From Chloroflexi bacterium CFX4 (GTDB lineage: Bacteria > Chloroflexota > Anaerolineae > Aggregatilineales > UBA2796), in the NCBI GenBank assembly GCA_021404685.1, contig QWHC01000004.1, forward strand, positions 162,697 to 226,696: DNA of 64,000 nt. Reading direction: 5' to 3'. The notes beneath the pieces are model-generated. The model was not told the DNA's origin and did not search any database. It was given only the letters and a program-made list of their open reading frames with translations. Below, in pieces: positions 37,101 through 47,783 of this stretch. Position 1 is the stretch's first letter. Each line of letters starts with the position of its first letter. The translations under genes were made by a program, and so were the position numbers.

Positions 37101-38396
37101 TTAATCGGCGCCTTGTGGCACAGCCTCTGGGGCGGGTGCTGCTTTGGTCTGCCCACTGAGATGCTGCGGCAGCAGCAGCGCCAAGAAGCCTGCGATGACC
37201 GCGCCAACTGCCACCACTTGAAAAGTCGCTTGGATGCCGATACCTGCAAACCCAGTGTTTTGGACGCCGTCTGCCAGAAAGCCCATCAAGGTGTTACCCA
37301 CTGCGCCGGCGCCGAAAATCATGCCCAGCGTTAGCCCTGCCGCAAAGCCTTTGGCGTTCGGCAGCAGGCTCTGCGCCATCACCACAATCAACGGGAAACT
37401 TGCACCGAGCAGCGCACCCGATGCCAACGCCAGCAGGGGCGCAGCGAGACCTTCGGCGATGGGCAGCACAAAGAGCAGCGGCGCACCTAGCCACACGCTG
37501 ATCGCAACCATGCGGCGGCGGTCGTGCTTATCGGCAAGCGCGCCCAGCAGCACACCGCTAAAGGCAGAGGCGATCCAATACAGGCTGGTCACAAAGCCAT
37601 AGTCGCTCACCAACCAGCCGCGCCGCTCAAAGAGGACTGGCACAAAGTTCACAATGCCAATGTGTGAGATGCTCCGCAGCAGCAGCACGACCATGAACAA
37701 GGCAAAGGTGCCAACCATCAGGCGCGTGATCGGTTGGCGCGCTTTCGGCGTGGCAATCGCGGCGCTCTGTGCGGCGCGCACGGTGCGTTGGCTTGGGATG
37801 TGCCTCGCCATCAAAAAGACAGCCGGCAAAGCGGCAAGGCTAAGCGCCAGCAAGCCAATCAGGTTGCCCTCAATGGTTGGCTGCAAACGCACCACCTCGC
37901 CCTGCTTGAAGGTGAGCGCCGCCAGCAATATGCCAGCAAAAGCAGGTCCCGTGCCTAAGCCAATCTGCCCAAACAAAAAGAAATAGCTGCTGTTGCGTGC
38001 AGCGTTCTCTTTTTCAATGTTGGAGGCGTACATCGTGCCGACGGGATGAAAAGCACCGCTGCCCAACGCCGCCGAGCAGTAGAAAAGCAGGGTGAGCAAA
38101 CCATTGCCCGAAAGCGCCATAACCAACGCCGCCGACATATTGAGCGCCGTCCATGCCACGCCCAGCGCTGCCAACCAGCGCCCGCCGCTGCGATCCGTCA
38201 GCACGCCGAAAAATGGCTGCGAAACAGCGCCAATCAGCTCGCGCAGGCTGATCGCCAGCCCAATGGCGGCGGCGTTCGCGTTCAGGAAGTGTGCGCCGGC
38301 AAAAGCAAGCAGCACAGGACCCATACTCATGAAGATGTCGTTGGTCAAATGCCCGATTAGCACTGCCCGAAATAGCACGCTGCGAGGGAAACGCAC
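37101..38396 (-). CDS. MFS exporter (Fsr-like)
   Basis: A 431-residue protein with about 12 hydrophobic helices and the loop-2/3 motif GVLTDRSGGRWLA of major-facilitator transporters. A second such motif, GALADKHDRRRM, lies in the second half. The start (LIGHLTNDIFMSMGPVLLAF) matches the fosmidomycin-resistance (Fsr) group. Such proteins export small molecules using the proton gradient. The cargo is unknown. It lies 74 bases after the methyltransferase gene, with its own start region. Confidence 0.82.
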   Translation of the reverse strand: MRFPRSVLFRAVLIGHLTNDIFMSMGPVLLAFAGAHFLNANAAAIGLAISLRELIGAVSQPFFGVLTDRSGGRWLAALGVAWTALNMSAALVMALSGNGLLTLLFYCSAALGSGAFHPVGTMYASNIEKENAARNSSYFFLFGQIGLGTGPAFAGILLAALTFKQGEVVRLQPTIEGNLIGLLALSLAALPAVFLMARHIPSQRTVRAAQSAAIATPKARQPITRLMVGTFALFMVVLLLRSISHIGIVNFVPVLFERRGWLVSDYGFVTSLYWIASAFSGVLLGALADKHDRRRMVAISVWLGAPLLFVLPIAEGLAAPLLALASGALLGASFPLIVVMAQSLLPNAKGFAAGLTLGMIFGAGAVGNTLMGFLADGVQNTGFAGIGIQATFQVVAVGAVIAGFLALLLPQHLSGQTKAAPAPEAVPQGAD

Positions 38397-38470: not shown

Positions 38471-39247
38471 CTAATCGGCTGCCTTCTTGGTGGCGATTGC
38501 CAACAGCGAAGTGCCAATTGGCAGGCGGCGGCGGGCAGCCACAAAGCGCGCTTCTAAGCCTAAAACCGCTGTCAGCATACCGTTCAGAATCGGCACAATC
38601 TTTAACTCGTTCTCGGCAAGCGCTGCCGACTCAGCGTCTTTGCGCGTTGCCAGGCGGCGTCCCAGCCAGACCAACGGAAAAATGCTCGCCATATAATGTG
38701 TGAGGAAGGTGACTTCAAAGCCTGTCTCGGTCAGCTTTTGGTGCAGTTCGCGCCGTTGATAGCGCCGATAATGGTGAGAGGCTTCATCAAAATAGCTCCA
38801 CAGGCTCATATGGGCGGGAACGGTGATCAGCAGCGTCCCGTTGTCTGCCAGCAGCGCGTGGAGCGCACGCAGCACTGAACGATCATCGGGCAAATGCTCC
38901 AGCACGTCGAAGATGCCGATCAGTGCGAAGCGCGTTTTGAAGGGCGGCTGGTGGATATCCGCTTGCACCAAAGGGCAGGTTACGCGCTGCCGCGCATAGA
39001 TCAGCCCTTCCAGAAATAAATCCAGCCCAACGACTTGCCCTTGCGCGCAAACCTGCTCCACATGGCGCAGCACATTGCCTGTGCCGCAGCCAACTTCCAA
39101 AACGCGGTAGCCTTTGGGCAGACGGCTAACCACGCGCTGCAACGTGCCGCGAATGGCAGCGTTGCGCGCCCGAAACCAAAAGTGCTGATCTTCCACCTGC
39201 CACAGCTTGGCGAAAAAGGTCGGATCGTATGACGTTTCAGGCATCAT
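38471..39247 (-). CDS. Class I SAM-dependent methyltransferase
   Basis: A 258-residue protein with SAM motif I VLEVGCGTG (about 45-53) and the following motifs ADIHQPPF and FDVLEHLPDD, typical of the UbiE/Methyltransf_11-like group. A C-terminal hydrophobic stretch (YMASIFPLVWLGRR) suggests contact with the membrane or a lipid-linked substrate. Its start overlaps the stop of the aminotransferase (ATGA), so it belongs to the sugar-modification set upstream. Substrate unknown; a lipid-linked or nucleotide sugar is a reasonable guess. Confidence 0.85.
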   Translation of the reverse strand: MMPETSYDPTFFAKLWQVEDQHFWFRARNAAIRGTLQRVVSRLPKGYRVLEVGCGTGNVLRHVEQVCAQGQVVGLDLFLEGLIYARQRVTCPLVQADIHQPPFKTRFALIGIFDVLEHLPDDRSVLRALHALLADNGTLLITVPAHMSLWSYFDEASHHYRRYQRRELHQKLTETGFEVTFLTHYMASIFPLVWLGRRLATRKDAESAALAENELKIVPILNGMLTAVLGLEARFVAARRRLPIGTSLLAIATKKAAD

Positions 39248-40389
39248 GTGCGGTCAACCTTGAAGGTCAACACGGCTTCAATCACCCGTCCCTGCAATGC
39301 CTCATCCAGATCGTTGAAGAAAGGCAGCCGCACCAGCTGGTCGCTAATGCGCTCCGTCACAGGGCAATCGCCAGGTTTTCCGCCAAACTTCAAGCCCATC
39401 TCCGAAAGGTGCAGCGGCAAATAGTGAAAGACAGCCAGAATGCCGTGCGCTTTTAGGTGCGCGATGAACGCCTGCCGTGCTTCTAAGGAAGGCATGAGCA
39501 GATAGAACATATGGTATGCCTGTTCGCAGTGTTCAGGCACATGCGGCAGCTGCACACCATTTTCGGCTGCCCAGTTGCTCAAGTGTGCCGCGTAGGTCTC
39601 CCAAATGCGGCGGCGAATGCCCTGAATGCGCTCATGCACCTCGAATTGTGCGTACAAGAATGCCGCCAGCAAATCTGAGGGCAAATAGCTTGAGCCAACG
39701 TCTACCCACGTGTATTTATCCACCTGCCCGCGAAAGAAGCGGCTGCGATTCGTCCCCTTCTCGCGGATGATCTCGGCGCGCTCGGCATACTGCGGATCGT
39801 TGATGAGCAGCGCGCCGCCTTCGCCGCAGGTGAAATTCTTCGTCTCGTGGAAGCTCTGCGTTGCCAGCGCGCCAAAGGTGCCGAGATAGCGCCCGCGATA
39901 TTTGCCGAACAAGCCGTGCGCGTTATCTTCCACTACAGCAAGGTTGTGGTGCGCGGCAAGCGCTAGGATAGCCTCCATCTCACAGCCAACGCCAGCATAA
40001 TGGACAGGCACAAGGGCGCGTGTGCGCGGCGTGATCAAGCGCTCAAGCTGGCGCTCATCAAGGTTGAGCGTATCCGAACGCACATCGGCGAAAATGGGGC
40101 GCACGCCGCGCAGCACGAAGGCGTTCACCGTCGAAACGAAGGTGAAGGACGGGAAAATGACCTCATCGCCTGCGCGCAGATCGAGCAGCAGCGCTGCCAT
40201 TTCAAGGGCATGGGTGCAGTTGGTCGTCAGCAGTGCCTTCGGCACGCCAAAGGTTTGTTCTAGGAAGGCGTGGCATTTTTTGGTGAAACTGCCATCACCA
40301 GAGGCGTGACCGTTGGCAATCGCCTGCAAGATGTACGCCTGCTCATTGCTGAGCAGGCAGGGTCGGTTAAAAGGGATGGTGATGGTCAT
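39244..40389 (-). CDS. wecE: dTDP-4-amino-4,6-dideoxygalactose transaminase (WecE/RffA type)
   Basis: A 381-residue PLP enzyme of the DegT/DnrJ/EryC1/StrS family. The PLP Lys is Lys184 in SFHETKNFTCGEGG. The phrases EKGTNRSRFFRG and KYTWVDVGSSYLPSD are highly typical of the WecE branch. That branch transfers an amino group from glutamate to dTDP-4-keto-6-deoxyglucose, giving dTDP-4-amino-4,6-dideoxygalactose (dTDP-Fuc4N). It lies between a methyltransferase and a sugar N-formyltransferase. RmlA and RmlB, which make the substrate, are not in the window. Confidence 0.9.
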   Translation of the reverse strand: MTITIPFNRPCLLSNEQAYILQAIANGHASGDGSFTKKCHAFLEQTFGVPKALLTTNCTHALEMAALLLDLRAGDEVIFPSFTFVSTVNAFVLRGVRPIFADVRSDTLNLDERQLERLITPRTRALVPVHYAGVGCEMEAILALAAHHNLAVVEDNAHGLFGKYRGRYLGTFGALATQSFHETKNFTCGEGGALLINDPQYAERAEIIREKGTNRSRFFRGQVDKYTWVDVGSSYLPSDLLAAFLYAQFEVHERIQGIRRRIWETYAAHLSNWAAENGVQLPHVPEHCEQAYHMFYLLMPSLEARQAFIAHLKAHGILAVFHYLPLHLSEMGLKFGGKPGDCPVTERISDQLVRLPFFNDLDEALQGRVIEAVLTFKVDRT

Positions 40390-40394
40390 AGCTG

Positions 40395-41321
40395 CTACCT
40401 TCCTAGTGTAAGTGACAGACTGTTGAGAACTTCATCCGCGCCCTTCAGTGGATTTTGCCCTAATTGAACTTCTTGAACAAGCAGACCGCCATCACCAGTT
40501 AGAATAACGCTTCCTACACCTTTTTTTACCTCGATAACTCGCCCTGTCACACGCCCAACATAACGCGGAAAATCCGCGATCATGGCTGCTTGCCAGATGA
40601 TGAGTTTTTCACCGTGCAAAGTCGTATAAGCGCCTGTGTAAGGTCGTGTCACAGCGCGAATCAAGTTGAAAATCTCCCGCGATGGACACTGCCAATCAAT
40701 CCGATTATCTTCAGGTAGCCGCTTGCAGGTGTACGTGGCTTGTGTCACATCTTGCGGATAGTAGACTACCTGACCAGAGATCAGCTTGGGCAGATTTTCT
40801 TCAAGCAACCTCAGATAAGTGAGGGTGACTCGTTCCATTACGATCGAGATTGTCTCATCAGCTTCAATGGTCACTGAGTATTGTGCCAATATTTCGCCTG
40901 CATCAACTTGCTGAGCAATTCTGAACAAGGTGACGCCTGTTTGCGTCTCACCATTGATCATTGCCCACACTGTCGGTGAAAAGCCTCGATAGGCTGGCAA
41001 CAGTGAGTCGTGAAAGACAAAAGCACCTAGCCGAATACGCTCATAAACTGACGCAGGAATCAAAAAGCGCCAGCTCACCACGAGCATGAGATCAACAGAC
41101 TCCCAAAGTGCGGACAATTGTGGCGCGCCTACTTGTTTGGTTTCGATGAATGTTGCACCTAACTTTTCCGCTGCTGCGCGGATTTCTTCGAAAAAGGGTG
41201 GTTCCCACTGCTCTTCTTTGAAAGTGATCACCAATAACTCTGTGTGTGGTGGCATAATTGCTGCCAATTTATGCAAAACACGCAAGCCGCGCTGCGTAGC
41301 ACATAACAAAGCTATTTTCAT
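40395..41321 (-). CDS. Sugar N-formyltransferase (ArnA-N/Fmt-like)
   Basis: A 308-residue protein of the formyltransferase fold. His104 in FHDSLLPAYRGFSP and Asp140 in VDAGEI match the catalytic His104 and Asp140 of ArnA by position. The third member of the ArnA trio, Asn102, is Val here (FVFH). The C-terminal part (about 205-300) resembles the Fmt C-terminal barrel. It would use 10-formyl-tetrahydrofolate to formylate a sugar amine, most likely the dTDP-Fuc4N made by the neighbouring transaminase. The gene is lower in GC than its neighbours: 28 of 60 in each of two lines counted, against 36 of 60 in a line of the transaminase gene. This suggests separate acquisition. Confidence 0.8.
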   Translation of the reverse strand: MKIALLCATQRGLRVLHKLAAIMPPHTELLVITFKEEQWEPPFFEEIRAAAEKLGATFIETKQVGAPQLSALWESVDLMLVVSWRFLIPASVYERIRLGAFVFHDSLLPAYRGFSPTVWAMINGETQTGVTLFRIAQQVDAGEILAQYSVTIEADETISIVMERVTLTYLRLLEENLPKLISGQVVYYPQDVTQATYTCKRLPEDNRIDWQCPSREIFNLIRAVTRPYTGAYTTLHGEKLIIWQAAMIADFPRYVGRVTGRVIEVKKGVGSVILTGDGGLLVQEVQLGQNPLKGADEVLNSLSLTLGR

Positions 41322-42262
41322 GACACTTCGCCTTCCGACGGGTTAGTTTGGTATTTCACAGCATAAGCTGGACGATCCATGCTGCGGAAGTGCATCCGCG
41401 CTAAATATTCACCAATAATGCCCAATGAAAATAGCTGCACACCGGAAAAAATGGCGATGATTGAGGCGAGGAACGGAAAGCCCGGCACGCTGCCCCCTTC
41501 AGCAAAATAGCGCACAATGACGAATAAGAAAATGAAGATGCCAAAAACTGTGAAGGTGAAGCCAAGCAGGCTGGCAAGTTGCAGCGGCATGACGCTGAAG
41601 CCCGTCACCATATTGAAGGTGTGTGCGATCAACTTTCGCAGCGTGTAGTTGGACTTGCCGTAGCGGCGCGGCGCGTGTTCAACAGCGACGGCGGCAAAGC
41701 GCGTCGTCCCCCATGTTAGCAGCACATCAATCGAAACATACGGACTGTTATAGTTGGCAAACGCCTTCCGCACTTCCTGCCGAAAGGCGCGGAACGCGCT
41801 CACATTGCGGGCGCTCTGAACGCCCATCGCGCTTTGCAGGGCAAGTTTCGTCACCTGAGAGGCAAGATCGCGCAGCAAGCCGTGGTGTTCTTTTTGCGGC
41901 GTGCCATAGACCACATCATAGCCTTCCTCAAGTTTCGCCAGAAGTTTGTGAATTTCGGCGGGCGGATGCTGCAAATCATCATCCATCGTCACGATGATGG
42001 CGTGCTGCGCTGCGCGAATGCCACACAACAGCGCATTATGCTGCCCATAGTTTCGCATCAAGTCAATGCCTGTGATCCACGCATGGCGCGCCGCAAGGTC
42101 TTGCACCACTGCCCAACTTTGGTCGCGGCTGCCATCGTTCACAAGGATTAGCTCAATTGGCGCACCGTAATCCGTGAATGCCTCGCTCAGGGCTGCCACT
42201 AACAAAGGCAGGCTCTGCTCACTGTTATAGACAGGAACAACAATCGAAAGCGCGTTTGGCAT
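41318..42262 (-). CDS. ArnC/DPM1-like family 2 glycosyltransferase
   Basis: A 314-residue GT2 enzyme with a cytoplasmic catalytic domain: LSIVVPVYNSE, LVNDGSRD, then the metal motif DDDLQHPP. Two transmembrane helices follow at about 230-250 and 262-285 (FGIFIFLFVIVRYF). This is the ArnC/GtrB layout, an enzyme that loads a sugar from a nucleotide onto polyprenyl phosphate. Its stop overlaps the start of the formyltransferase gene (ATGA). In the arn pathway the equivalent enzyme loads a formylated amino sugar, which fits this context. Confidence 0.87.
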   Translation of the reverse strand: MPNALSIVVPVYNSEQSLPLLVAALSEAFTDYGAPIELILVNDGSRDQSWAVVQDLAARHAWITGIDLMRNYGQHNALLCGIRAAQHAIIVTMDDDLQHPPAEIHKLLAKLEEGYDVVYGTPQKEHHGLLRDLASQVTKLALQSAMGVQSARNVSAFRAFRQEVRKAFANYNSPYVSIDVLLTWGTTRFAAVAVEHAPRRYGKSNYTLRKLIAHTFNMVTGFSVMPLQLASLLGFTFTVFGIFIFLFVIVRYFAEGGSVPGFPFLASIIAIFSGVQLFSLGIIGEYLARMHFRSMDRPAYAVKYQTNPSEGEVS

Positions 42263-42323
42263 GGCTCAGGCTCACTTCTCCTCGAAAGCCTACCTTAATT
42301 GTAGGTGTATTGCTAACCGAAAC

Positions 42324-44135
42324 TTAGTCGCTGGCAGTGAGGCGCGGCTGAATCCACAGCACTTGGACTGCCCCTTCAGACGAGCGCGTTTCATAGACCA
42401 ACAAGATGGTTTTACCACGCCACGCGCTTAGGTCAACGCGGATTGGCAGCGCCACGCCACCTTCAAGGCTGCCTTCATGCAACGGGCTGATGGTGCGCCC
42501 ATCGCGCACAGCGAAACGAAAGGTAGCCGTTCGCAGCGGCTCGGCGTAGAGTTCTGCCTCAAAAAAGATGTATGGCGCAGCGGGCAACTGCACATATTGC
42601 TCAACGGTGATCGGCGCAGGCAGCGCGAATGCATCCACTTCGGAATCGCCCACCCTATGTTTGACGAAGGTTGGCTGCACGCCGGCTACGCCGTTTAGGT
42701 GCTGAATAGGCGCATCAACTGGTTGTGCGGCAGGCTGCAAGCCCGCATACCAATCTCTGAATCCCGTTAGGCGGTGATGGGCGAGGTATTGCATATCCAC
42801 ATGCCGCCATACCGATTCGTAGAAGCGGTTCAGGCATGGCGCATCGGGTGCGTTCAAGTAATTCAACATACACAAACGGTCTTGCTCAGTCAACGTTACC
42901 GGATAATATTCGCTACCCACCTGCCAAGAGGCAGCATTGACGATGATAAACACTGGTAGCAGGCTTATGAACACGGCACGGTTAAGTTTTTGGGCGCTGT
43001 GGCGGCGTGTTTTGGGTGCGTGCCAGAGCGCCAGCGCAGAGATCATCAGCACTGCCAACCAAAACCAATTGGCAGCGACAGCATAGCGCGCCGCCAACGG
43101 CTGAGAATCGAACACATAGTACATAATATCTGCACGCGCTGCGGCAGCGATCACAGCATTGCCCACTGCCATTAGGATAAGCACGCTTGGCAGCGCAAAG
43201 AAAGAAAGCGGCACCTGCTTTCGCAGCAAGAAGTGTGTGTTGAACAACAGGACACCTAGCCCAATCCCAAAACACAGAATGCTGGCGAAATACAGCCCGT
43301 TAAGTTCTAAGGCGAATGGCGCGCCCAGAAACGCCAACACATAGAGCAGATAAATCGGCAACGGCACCTCAGGCTTTTCAACACCTGAAAAGCTGACTGT
43401 AAAATCGTAGTTCAGGAAGAAAATGCCGATAAAGATCACGGTGGCAGCCAGCCATGCCGCGAAATAGCGCCAGTCGCGGTAGCCGCGCAGCCACAACGCA
43501 GGCACCAGCGCAATCCACAACGGCAAGCCGCCCGCATTGCTGAACGTCGCGCCGATTACACAAAACATCAAGAGCAGTAAGGTCTGGCGGCTGACCTTTA
43601 AGGCAGCCAGCACCCACAGCGCCGCAAACATGAAAAGCTGCCCCCAGTAAAAGCCAAGATACAGGGCAAAGGTTGGGCGCTGGCGCAGCGCAAAGAGCAG
43701 CAGGGCAAAGGGCAGCACCAACCACGCTGCCGTTGGCGGATGCACACGCTTCCAGGCATTGTGCAGCAGCACAAAGCTGGCAACCAGCAGCACAAAATTC
43801 ACCCACATCTCAACGCGCAAGTCCCAGCCTGTCAGCAGCGTGTTCAATGCAACGGTTAGCTTGGTGAACACCAAACGATGATTGCTCTCTTGCTGGAAAA
43901 AGTAGCTTGGCTGCAAAAGCCCTTCAGCGGTGGCAACTGCCACAGGCGCAGTGACGGCATATTCATCACCAAACGGCACATTCACACCCTGCACCGCGAT
44001 GAACAACGCCAGCAGCAGCATAGGAATCAAGGTTGCATAGTGAAGAAGGCTGTTCACCCGTGTTCCGAATACGCCCAAAATAAAGTCCCTCAGTGTGTGC
44101 TGTGAAACTGCACAAAGACTGCACAAATAGCGCAT
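42324..44135 (-). CDS. Polytopic membrane protein, GT-C-like, possible final transferase
   Basis: A 603-residue protein with about 11-12 hydrophobic helices (residues 30-430) and a C-terminal outer domain of about 170 residues. The first outer loop carries an acidic pair in NVPFGDEYAV, as expected for GT-C enzymes such as ArnT, where it contacts the acceptor or the lipid sugar. It lies just upstream of the ArnC-like gene on the same strand. A role in moving a polyprenyl-linked sugar to an outer acceptor is an inference. The ATG at 44135 has a weak ribosome site, and a GTG start some 20 codons later is possible. Confidence 0.6.
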   Translation of the reverse strand: MRYLCSLCAVSQHTLRDFILGVFGTRVNSLLHYATLIPMLLLALFIAVQGVNVPFGDEYAVTAPVAVATAEGLLQPSYFFQQESNHRLVFTKLTVALNTLLTGWDLRVEMWVNFVLLVASFVLLHNAWKRVHPPTAAWLVLPFALLLFALRQRPTFALYLGFYWGQLFMFAALWVLAALKVSRQTLLLLMFCVIGATFSNAGGLPLWIALVPALWLRGYRDWRYFAAWLAATVIFIGIFFLNYDFTVSFSGVEKPEVPLPIYLLYVLAFLGAPFALELNGLYFASILCFGIGLGVLLFNTHFLLRKQVPLSFFALPSVLILMAVGNAVIAAAARADIMYYVFDSQPLAARYAVAANWFWLAVLMISALALWHAPKTRRHSAQKLNRAVFISLLPVFIIVNAASWQVGSEYYPVTLTEQDRLCMLNYLNAPDAPCLNRFYESVWRHVDMQYLAHHRLTGFRDWYAGLQPAAQPVDAPIQHLNGVAGVQPTFVKHRVGDSEVDAFALPAPITVEQYVQLPAAPYIFFEAELYAEPLRTATFRFAVRDGRTISPLHEGSLEGGVALPIRVDLSAWRGKTILLVYETRSSEGAVQVLWIQPRLTASD

Positions 44136-46319: not shown

Positions 46320-47783
46320 TTAAGCGGCTGGCGTAGCCGTCGGTGTTGGTGTTTGGGTGGGCGTTACGGGCAACGCAGGGATGGGGACGGTGACCATGAC
46401 CACCGTTCCGTTGGCTGATGGCACAGTTTCAGTATAGGGTCTCGGATAGCCTGCTGGCGTCTCACCACCGGAATCAACAGCCCACGGAGTTAATGAAACG
46501 TTAGTCCCGTAATAGGCTTGTGCCTCTTGCTGGGTTGGGAAAAATGGCTGCGTTGGCGGCGGACTGTAATTTGCCACGTTCGGACCCCAACCAACAACCA
46601 TCGAGACGTGATTGGTCGAAGCTGCTGTGAGCGTTGTTCCTGTATAGCTGAAAACCAGCGTGCCTGGCGCAATGTTGGATTCCCAACCTGTCTCACCAGG
46701 CGTAACACGCGTTGTGCCGTGTACATTAATCAAGGCATTGTAGAGAGGCGTGACGCCACGAAACGCATCGGTGCCTTGAAAGAAATTTTCAATGCCATCG
46801 TGGGTTTGCTCTTCGGGCGAGTAAGAGTCGGAGTTGCGGTAGTAATCCAAGACACGACCAGGCCCCCAAAGTTGATCACTACCAGGGGGTACAACACCTG
46901 GAATGGATGTAACATTAGGAAGGGGTATAACCGGAAACCCAGACATAAATAACCCGACTGAGACAAACATAGCACAGTTGCCGCCATCTACTTCGACACC
47001 ATCAAGCGCACCTGTCAAATTTGACAAATAAGGATTGCTTTTCCCATAATAAGCAAATCCCGTCCCGTTCTCGAAAGCCAGATAATTAGTGCCTTGGGCG
47101 TTGGCAAACGCAATCGTATAGAGCGCTGCTAACGCGCCAGCATTGCCTTGTTGTGCGCTGGCAATCAAAGCATCTACCGAAGTGCGATCAATACGCCCCT
47201 CAGCAATGGCTTGCTCTAAACCGTTGGCGACGTTAAGTGCGTTGTTGATATTAACGTAAGGAACGCCTTCTGAATTTAGACGCGTATTTCGATAATCGTA
47301 GGTTAAAAGGGATTGCAGAACAGGATAATACACGCTATCTTGCCCAGATATTGGCGTTGGTTCTGGTGTAGGCGTAACTGTTCCAATCTGCATGATAGCG
47401 GGTTTTGCGAACCCATTTGAAACAAGCAAATATTCGTGTTCAGCCGCCGAGGCGCCTCCATCTGCTTCGATGTCGGTTAATTCGCCCATAAAGAGCCTTG
47501 CCGCCTGTTCTTCGTAGTCTTTGAAAGTATCATGCGTTCTGATTATTTCGTCGCTGACGAGTTGAAGCGCATTTTCCAATCTGTGCAGTGCCGGAAAGAT
47601 GAGTTCTTTCATCTCCGCAAAAAAGCGCTCAGCGGCACGCCCCTGCCAGCCACCCGCATAGAGCTTATTGTAATGGTCTTCAAGTTGGTAGGTAAGTGCT
47701 GCTGTGGTATCGGTATAGCGTGCGAATGTTTTGGAGGTGTTTTTGAGGAAGTCGTAATCAGCTTGGATTACTTTTGAAGGCAT
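46320..47783 (-). CDS. WXG100-domain protein fused to a cysteine amidase/peptidase-like domain
   Basis: A 487-residue protein without signal peptide. Residues 1-100 form a helical hairpin with the turn GGWQGRAAERF (W46-x-G48), the mark of WXG100 proteins exported by type VII secretion. A linker with TPTPEPTP follows. The C-terminal domain has Cys270 in GGNCAMFVSVG and His392 in NHVSMVVGW. The spacing and context match papain-fold amidases (Amidase_6/NlpC-P60-like), where Cys and His are catalytic. The tail is Thr/Pro-rich (TPTQTPTPTATPAA). It looks like a secreted effector or wall hydrolase. GC is low in parts of this gene (24 of 60 in the line at 47281). Confidence 0.75.
   Translation of the reverse strand: MPSKVIQADYDFLKNTSKTFARYTDTTAALTYQLEDHYNKLYAGGWQGRAAERFFAEMKELIFPALHRLENALQLVSDEIIRTHDTFKDYEEQAARLFMGELTDIEADGGASAAEHEYLLVSNGFAKPAIMQIGTVTPTPEPTPISGQDSVYYPVLQSLLTYDYRNTRLNSEGVPYVNINNALNVANGLEQAIAEGRIDRTSVDALIASAQQGNAGALAALYTIAFANAQGTNYLAFENGTGFAYYGKSNPYLSNLTGALDGVEVDGGNCAMFVSVGLFMSGFPVIPLPNVTSIPGVVPPGSDQLWGPGRVLDYYRNSDSYSPEEQTHDGIENFFQGTDAFRGVTPLYNALINVHGTTRVTPGETGWESNIAPGTLVFSYTGTTLTAASTNHVSMVVGWGPNVANYSPPPTQPFFPTQQEAQAYYGTNVSLTPWAVDSGGETPAGYPRPYTETVPSANGTVVMVTVPIPALPVTPTQTPTPTATPAA

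Follow-up and report, generated by a model that had tools for sequence, protein, structure and literature searches.

A predicted Fuc4N-based surface glycosylation operon with an apparent acetyl-to-formyl gene replacement in a Chloroflexota genome lacking outer-membrane markers

Results

Organization of the locus

The window analyzed here, a 64,000-nucleotide stretch on a 289-kb contig of Chloroflexi bacterium CFX4 (assembly of 4.35 Mb in 39 contigs), contains an operon predicted to build an acylated amino sugar and attach it outside the cell. Five genes encode, in order, a polytopic membrane protein (GTC), an ArnC/GtrB-like glycosyltransferase, a formyltransferase-like protein (FT), a WecE-type transaminase, and a methyltransferase (MT). 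An initial annotation had placed all five on one strand, which we confirm at the coordinates in Table 1, and had described the last four as linked by ATGA overlaps or a five-base gap. This is indeed what the DNA contains: an ATGA overlap joins the ArnC-like and FT genes, five bases separate FT from WecE, and WecE and MT overlap by four bases. The GTC gene lies 61 bp upstream of the ArnC-like gene.

Statements about whole genomes rest here on family searches. In such searches, run with positive controls, both LpxC and Omp85 were absent from the window's own genome and from eight relatives, and the earlier remark that no lipid A or lipopolysaccharide (LPS) gene is present holds assembly-wide for these two families. 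The host seems to lack an outer membrane.

Table 1. Features of the glycosylation locus, in window positions
Feature	Coordinates	Strand	Remarks
GTC-like membrane protein, 603 aa	42324..44135	-	Candidate extracytoplasmic glycosyltransferase; polytopic, C-terminal beta-sandwich
ArnC/GtrB-like GT2 glycosyltransferase	41318..42262	-	PF00535; predicted polyprenyl-phosphate (acylamino-dideoxygalactosyl) transferase
Exchanged segment (FT and last ~50 nt of ArnC-like gene)	40384..41368	-	No DNA similarity to the G003 operon
FT, formyltransferase of ArnA-N fold	40395..41321	-	PF00551 + PF02911; predicted dTDP-Fuc4N N-formyltransferase
WecE-type dTDP-4-amino-4,6-dideoxygalactose transaminase	39244..40389	-	NF008687, TIGR02379
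MT, S-adenosylmethionine-dependent methyltransferase	38471..39247	-	PF13489; optional cassette member
MFS transporter	37101..38396	-	PF07690; 74 bp downstream of MT, same strand

Enzyme families

The transaminase exceeds the cut-offs of both WecE models (NF008687, 563.8 against 375; TIGR02379, 518.2 against 434.85) and matches WecE in the Protein Data Bank (PDB; 6blg, 1.8e-127), while it falls below the ArnB equivalog (NF008658, 197.4 against 631). WecE forms dTDP-4-amino-4,6-dideoxygalactose (dTDP-Fuc4N), which WecD then acetylates in the enterobacterial common antigen (ECA) pathway (PMC7439462). The same genome encodes RmlB, on the contig of the window (TIGR01181, 460 against 365), and RmlA, on a different contig (RmlA_long, 438 against 320), and dTDP-4-keto-6-deoxyglucose can therefore be made. 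The earlier proposal that a WecE-type enzyme makes an amino sugar on dTDP is supported.

FT has both Formyl_trans_N and C-terminal domains, and its AlphaFold2 model (pLDDT 93.6) finds its best PDB match in the N-terminal domain of ArnA (2bln; TM-scores 0.88/0.91). It scores below the bifunctional ArnA model (NF005998, 176.8 against 777), the dehydrogenase half being absent. The glycosyltransferase retains the DDDLQHP and RRYGKSNYT motifs and matches ArnC (9hwj, 1.6e-50) and sll0501 (8e-42) in the PDB; judged by its sequence, it is a polyprenyl-phosphate glycosyltransferase of the GtrB/ArnC/DPM kind, scoring below the ArnC equivalog (NF007986, 188.6 against 529). Pfam and NCBIfam models thus place four of the five proteins in the families first proposed; the GT-C-like label of the fifth found no Pfam, PDB-profile, or transmembrane-fold match. 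Because the ArnA, ArnB, and ArnC cut-offs are all missed, identity with the arn operon was rejected, and no ArnD-like deformylase family was detected in a scan that covered eight genes, beginning with the MFS gene (37101) and ending with the WXG gene (47783). The term "Arn-like" in the initial annotation is a label for two folds, those of FT and the glycosyltransferase, and does not hold for a pathway.

A conserved three-gene core

A WecE-based scan of 396 genomes of the class yielded 62 close homologs, whose neighborhoods we compared. Across Anaerolineae, the recurrent order is ArnC-like gene, acyltransferase, WecE. A WecD-like GNAT adjoins WecE in 24 of the 62 genomes and an FT in four, one genome holding both; all of these GNAT- or FT-bearing loci also carry an ArnC-like gene, which FT precedes in two of the four FT loci. 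The remaining genomes have other neighbors or none that was recognized. For two scanned GNATs, the best NCBIfam matches are WecD models (70.7 bits in L108, 97.9 bits in L036). Rather than being scattered in relatives, these genes keep a conserved order, although only the three genes just named form the core. Conservation of all five, named earlier as a point to check, was rejected: GTC is mostly confined to the genus, and MT is optional, with relatives adjoining WecE in L033, L150, L071, L203, and L204 and absent from most loci.

In a phylum-wide sample, FT occurs in 2 of 400 genomes, namely the window's genome and one with a match at the contig coordinates of L033. The FT version of the cassette is also present in Opitutaceae, which belong to another phylum (L037, L038), accompanied there by a membrane protein and a methyltransferase of its own. 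The FT clade is monophyletic (support 97/97), and all 11 members found adjoin ArnC-like and WecE genes; of all the evidence, this combination of monophyly and linkage argues most strongly for dTDP-Fuc4N as the substrate of FT.

Two loci depart from the common arrangement. In L178 (7069-9161), the ArnC-like gene runs straight into WecE, the two overlapping without an intervening acyltransferase, and another FT-family gene is found at a different place in the same genome (L008). In L152 (5751-11122), the sequence reads as WbqC-like, WecE, RmlB-like, and RmlA-like genes on one strand.

The nucleotide-sugar genes could alternatively supply a Wzx/Wzy-type repeat-unit polymer through other glycosyltransferases, with the ArnC-like enzyme and GTC using a different sugar. 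RmlA adjoins genes that read, by eye, as Wzz/BY-kinase-like exopolysaccharide genes, and RmlB-like and RmlA-like neighbors take the place of the cassette at some WecE loci, such as L152. However, no other gene accompanies the acyltransferase and WecE as constantly as the ArnC-like gene does, in different families and even in Opitutaceae, and we regard such a division of labor as very unlikely.

Exchange of the acyltransferase

Two congeners carry closely related operons, which in G003 (locus L108) encode GTC (59% identity), the ArnC-like enzyme (83%), a GNAT, and WecE (89%), and in G002 (locus L210) the ArnC-like enzyme (77%), a GNAT, and WecE. In both, the GNAT occupies the slot that FT fills in the window, and the genes flanking this slot are 75-82% identical in DNA between the window and the two congeners. 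A blastn alignment of the window with L108 runs at 78% through the ArnC-like gene and 81% through WecE; it ends at window position 41369 and restarts at 40383, leaving out the exchanged segment. The GC content at third codon positions (GC3) of FT is 0.46, the lowest of the 47 genes in the window (mean 0.669, SD 0.053), compared with 0.63-0.70 for the ArnC-like, WecE, MT, and GTC genes. A search of the window's genome at E <= 1e-6 found no relative of the G003 GNAT.

The ArnC tree places the window as the sister of its two GNAT-bearing congeners (100/98). Across this tree, the FT and GNAT states switch back and forth, with seven changes between FT-bearing and GNAT loci. At least five changes are forced by starred branches for the FT-only group; neither count separates gain from loss. 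The WecE tree gives a similar alternation. FT loci were partly collected through an FT search, so the tree set does not show how frequent they are. FT was probably acquired by horizontal transfer and took the place of a WecD-like GNAT, and the replacement at this slot reads as a change from acetyl to formyl. In L036 (7986-11804) and L196 (5382-9217), FT and a WecD-like GNAT both stand around a single ArnC-WecE pair, and these loci may be intermediates of the exchange.

The ArnA-N fold next to an ArnC-like glycosyltransferase, like the earlier analogy with arn, would also fit a transient formylation for loading and transport, after which a deformylase encoded elsewhere would leave a cationic surface Fuc4N, for instance against cationic peptides. 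This is quite unlikely, given that the cluster contains no deformylase-like gene, that the Arn models are below cut-off and lipid A is missing (LpxC absent), and that the product of the acetyltransferase usually found in the same slot is a stable amide. Because the slot normally holds a WecD-like acetyltransferase, formyl is more likely the final N-acyl group than an Arn-type transient protecting group.

Active site of the formyltransferase

Sugar N-formyltransferases are defined by an Asn-His-Asp catalytic triad, as known from ArnA and Fmt. FT retains H104 and D140, numbered as in E. coli ArnA. At the position aligned with ArnA residue 102, an Asn, it has Val (Ala in L033). We extended this comparison to 73 FT-family open reading frames drawn from the fetched loci, a few of which are the same gene counted twice. 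Position 102 is Asn in 28 (Fmt and others), Gly in 32, Val in 11, and Ala in two; the His and Asp are present in all 73. Among the loci L039-L069, FT-like proteins of many phyla have Gly or Ala for the Fmt/ArnA catalytic Asn, with the His and Asp retained. Within the set of papers searched, none dealt with sugar formyltransferases without this Asn, nor with PseJ. This leaves two options: sugar-cluster enzymes can do without the Asn, or they catalyze another reaction.

The second option leads to a further explanation, in which FT does not formylate this sugar: it would transfer another group, use another substrate, or be inactive, and the sugar would remain unacylated or be acylated by an unrecognized enzyme. 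Besides the Val/Ala substitution throughout the clade and the Gly/Ala in relatives, the co-occurrence of FT with a GNAT in L036 and L196 fits this possibility, as does the pair without an intervening acyltransferase in L178. Against it stand the invariance of the SLLPxYRG loop and of the two other catalytic residues, His and Asp; the high-confidence ArnA-N-like model; and the repeated exchange with an acetyltransferase, which implies a common substrate. Clade members moreover remain 46-57% identical to the window's FT across families, as expected under selection. We therefore consider a non-formylating FT unlikely.

The membrane protein and neighboring genes

GTC has about 10 transmembrane segments. 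Its AlphaFold2 model (pLDDT 88.5) consists of transmembrane helices followed by a C-terminal jelly roll resembling carbohydrate-binding modules (CBMs), and in Foldseek this domain matches CBMs and, weakly, AftD. The transmembrane part gave no match by Pfam, phmmer, profile searches of the PDB, hhalign against a PMT_2 protein, or AlphaFold2/Foldseek. An acidic motif, [D/E][E/D/Q][W/Y], follows the first transmembrane segment in 16 of 16 GTC homologs. The gene directly upstream of the ArnC-like gene encodes a PMT_2-family protein in L033 and L150, and in several other loci polytopic proteins with 6-14 predicted transmembrane segments precede it. A GT-C domain combined with a CBM is a known layout (PMC11127046). 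Assignment of GTC as a GT-C glycosyltransferase is plausible rather than demonstrated.

The GTC family is centered on the genus, with six copies in the window's genome. Paralogs in L111, L112, L114, and L115 adjoin BatA/VWA and PMT_2-like genes, as scanned in L111; the other loci resemble it in the sizes and arrangement of their genes. The window's genome also has two GtrA-family genes outside the operon. The MFS gene downstream of MT was not seen in related cassettes; its membership in the operon is possible but unsupported. At 46320-47783, a gene encodes a protein with a WXG100 N-terminal domain and a long C-terminal extension; given its low GC3 (0.467, second lowest of the 47 genes), it was possibly acquired as well.

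Discussion

We interpret the locus, with a probability of roughly two in three, as a monoderm-type operon for extracytoplasmic glycosylation that is based on dTDP-Fuc4N, with N-formyl in place of N-acetyl. RmlA and RmlB, both encoded elsewhere in the genome, would convert glucose-1-phosphate to dTDP-glucose and then to dTDP-4-keto-6-deoxyglucose, which WecE would aminate to dTDP-Fuc4N. FT would formylate this to dTDP-Fuc4NFo, standing in for the relatives' WecD-like enzyme, whose expected product is dTDP-Fuc4NAc. The ArnC/GtrB-like enzyme would then load the acylamino sugar onto polyprenyl phosphate, and the resulting polyprenyl-P-Fuc4NFo would be flipped by another or a GtrA-type protein, allowing the upstream polytopic membrane protein, GTC, to transfer the sugar to an acceptor at the outer surface; MT may methylate the sugar. 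We infer the steps after WecE, the reaction order, the GT-C role, the flippase, the acceptor, and the retention of formyl on the final sugar. The original proposal of N-acylation followed by polyprenyl-phosphate loading is supported, in a genome without LPS genes, though not as an Arn pathway.

Several observations weigh against this interpretation. FT misses all sugar-formyltransferase equivalog cut-offs, and throughout its clade Val or Ala stands at the position of the canonical catalytic Asn; formyltransferase activity is accordingly predicted rather than established. The GNATs of the relatives fall below the WecD cut-offs (NF008212, 70.7-97.9 against 219; TIGR02382, 58-66 against 195), and the joint presence of FT and GNAT in L036 and L196 is not what a strict either/or swap would predict. 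On the membrane side, GTC is without a match to any GT-C family or structure, the gene upstream of the ArnC-like gene differs between loci, and the operon contains no flippase.

Known systems resemble the operon in part. With the ECA wec pathway (RmlA, RmlB, WecE, WecD; PMC7439462), it shares the transaminase family, the source of dTDP-4-keto-6-deoxyglucose, and, in relatives, a WecD-like GNAT. It differs in its predicted polyprenyl monophosphate intermediate, made by an ArnC-like enzyme, whereas ECA uses a lipid II intermediate made via WecF; here, moreover, a formyltransferase replaces WecD, in a genome without LpxC and Omp85. The GtrA/GtrB/Gtr three-component glycosylation and GT136 systems (PMC11127046) likewise pair a polyprenyl-phosphate glycosyltransferase with a polytopic membrane protein bearing a CBM-like domain, but the donor sugar is different here, a flippase is missing from the operon, and no relationship to known GT-C families could be detected in the sequence of the membrane protein. 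From arn, the locus has the fold of the ArnA N-terminal domain and a glycosyltransferase of the ArnC/GtrB family; unlike arn, it has WecE rather than ArnB, a free-standing FT without dehydrogenase, and no ArnD in the cluster, and neither an ArnT homolog nor lipid A was found; the arn equivalog cut-offs are all missed.

We describe a predicted decoration operon, based on Fuc4N and proceeding through a lipid-phosphate-linked sugar, in bacteria that lack outer-membrane markers and show an apparent acetyl-to-formyl gene replacement. The wider proposal, that Chloroflexota lacking an outer membrane use a polyprenyl-phosphate-linked Fuc4N surface donor and have repeatedly exchanged an acetyltransferase for a Val/Ala-type formyltransferase with a new type of active site, has in our view about even odds. 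To our knowledge, surface glycans of Chloroflexota are little characterized; from the cassette, one specific sugar can be predicted, either Fuc4NFo or Fuc4NAc. Matched natural pairs are available, such as the window and its congeners, in which a single gene distinguishes the core operons, and the FT clade poses the question of whether the Asn of the Asn-His-Asp triad is required for sugar N-formylation. In Brucella, an acetyltransferase added to an N-formyl-sugar pathway produced a new LPS antigenic structure (PMC5981137). Because of this precedent, the repeated formyl/acetyl exchange could, by analogy, plausibly serve as a means of antigenic or phage-receptor change.

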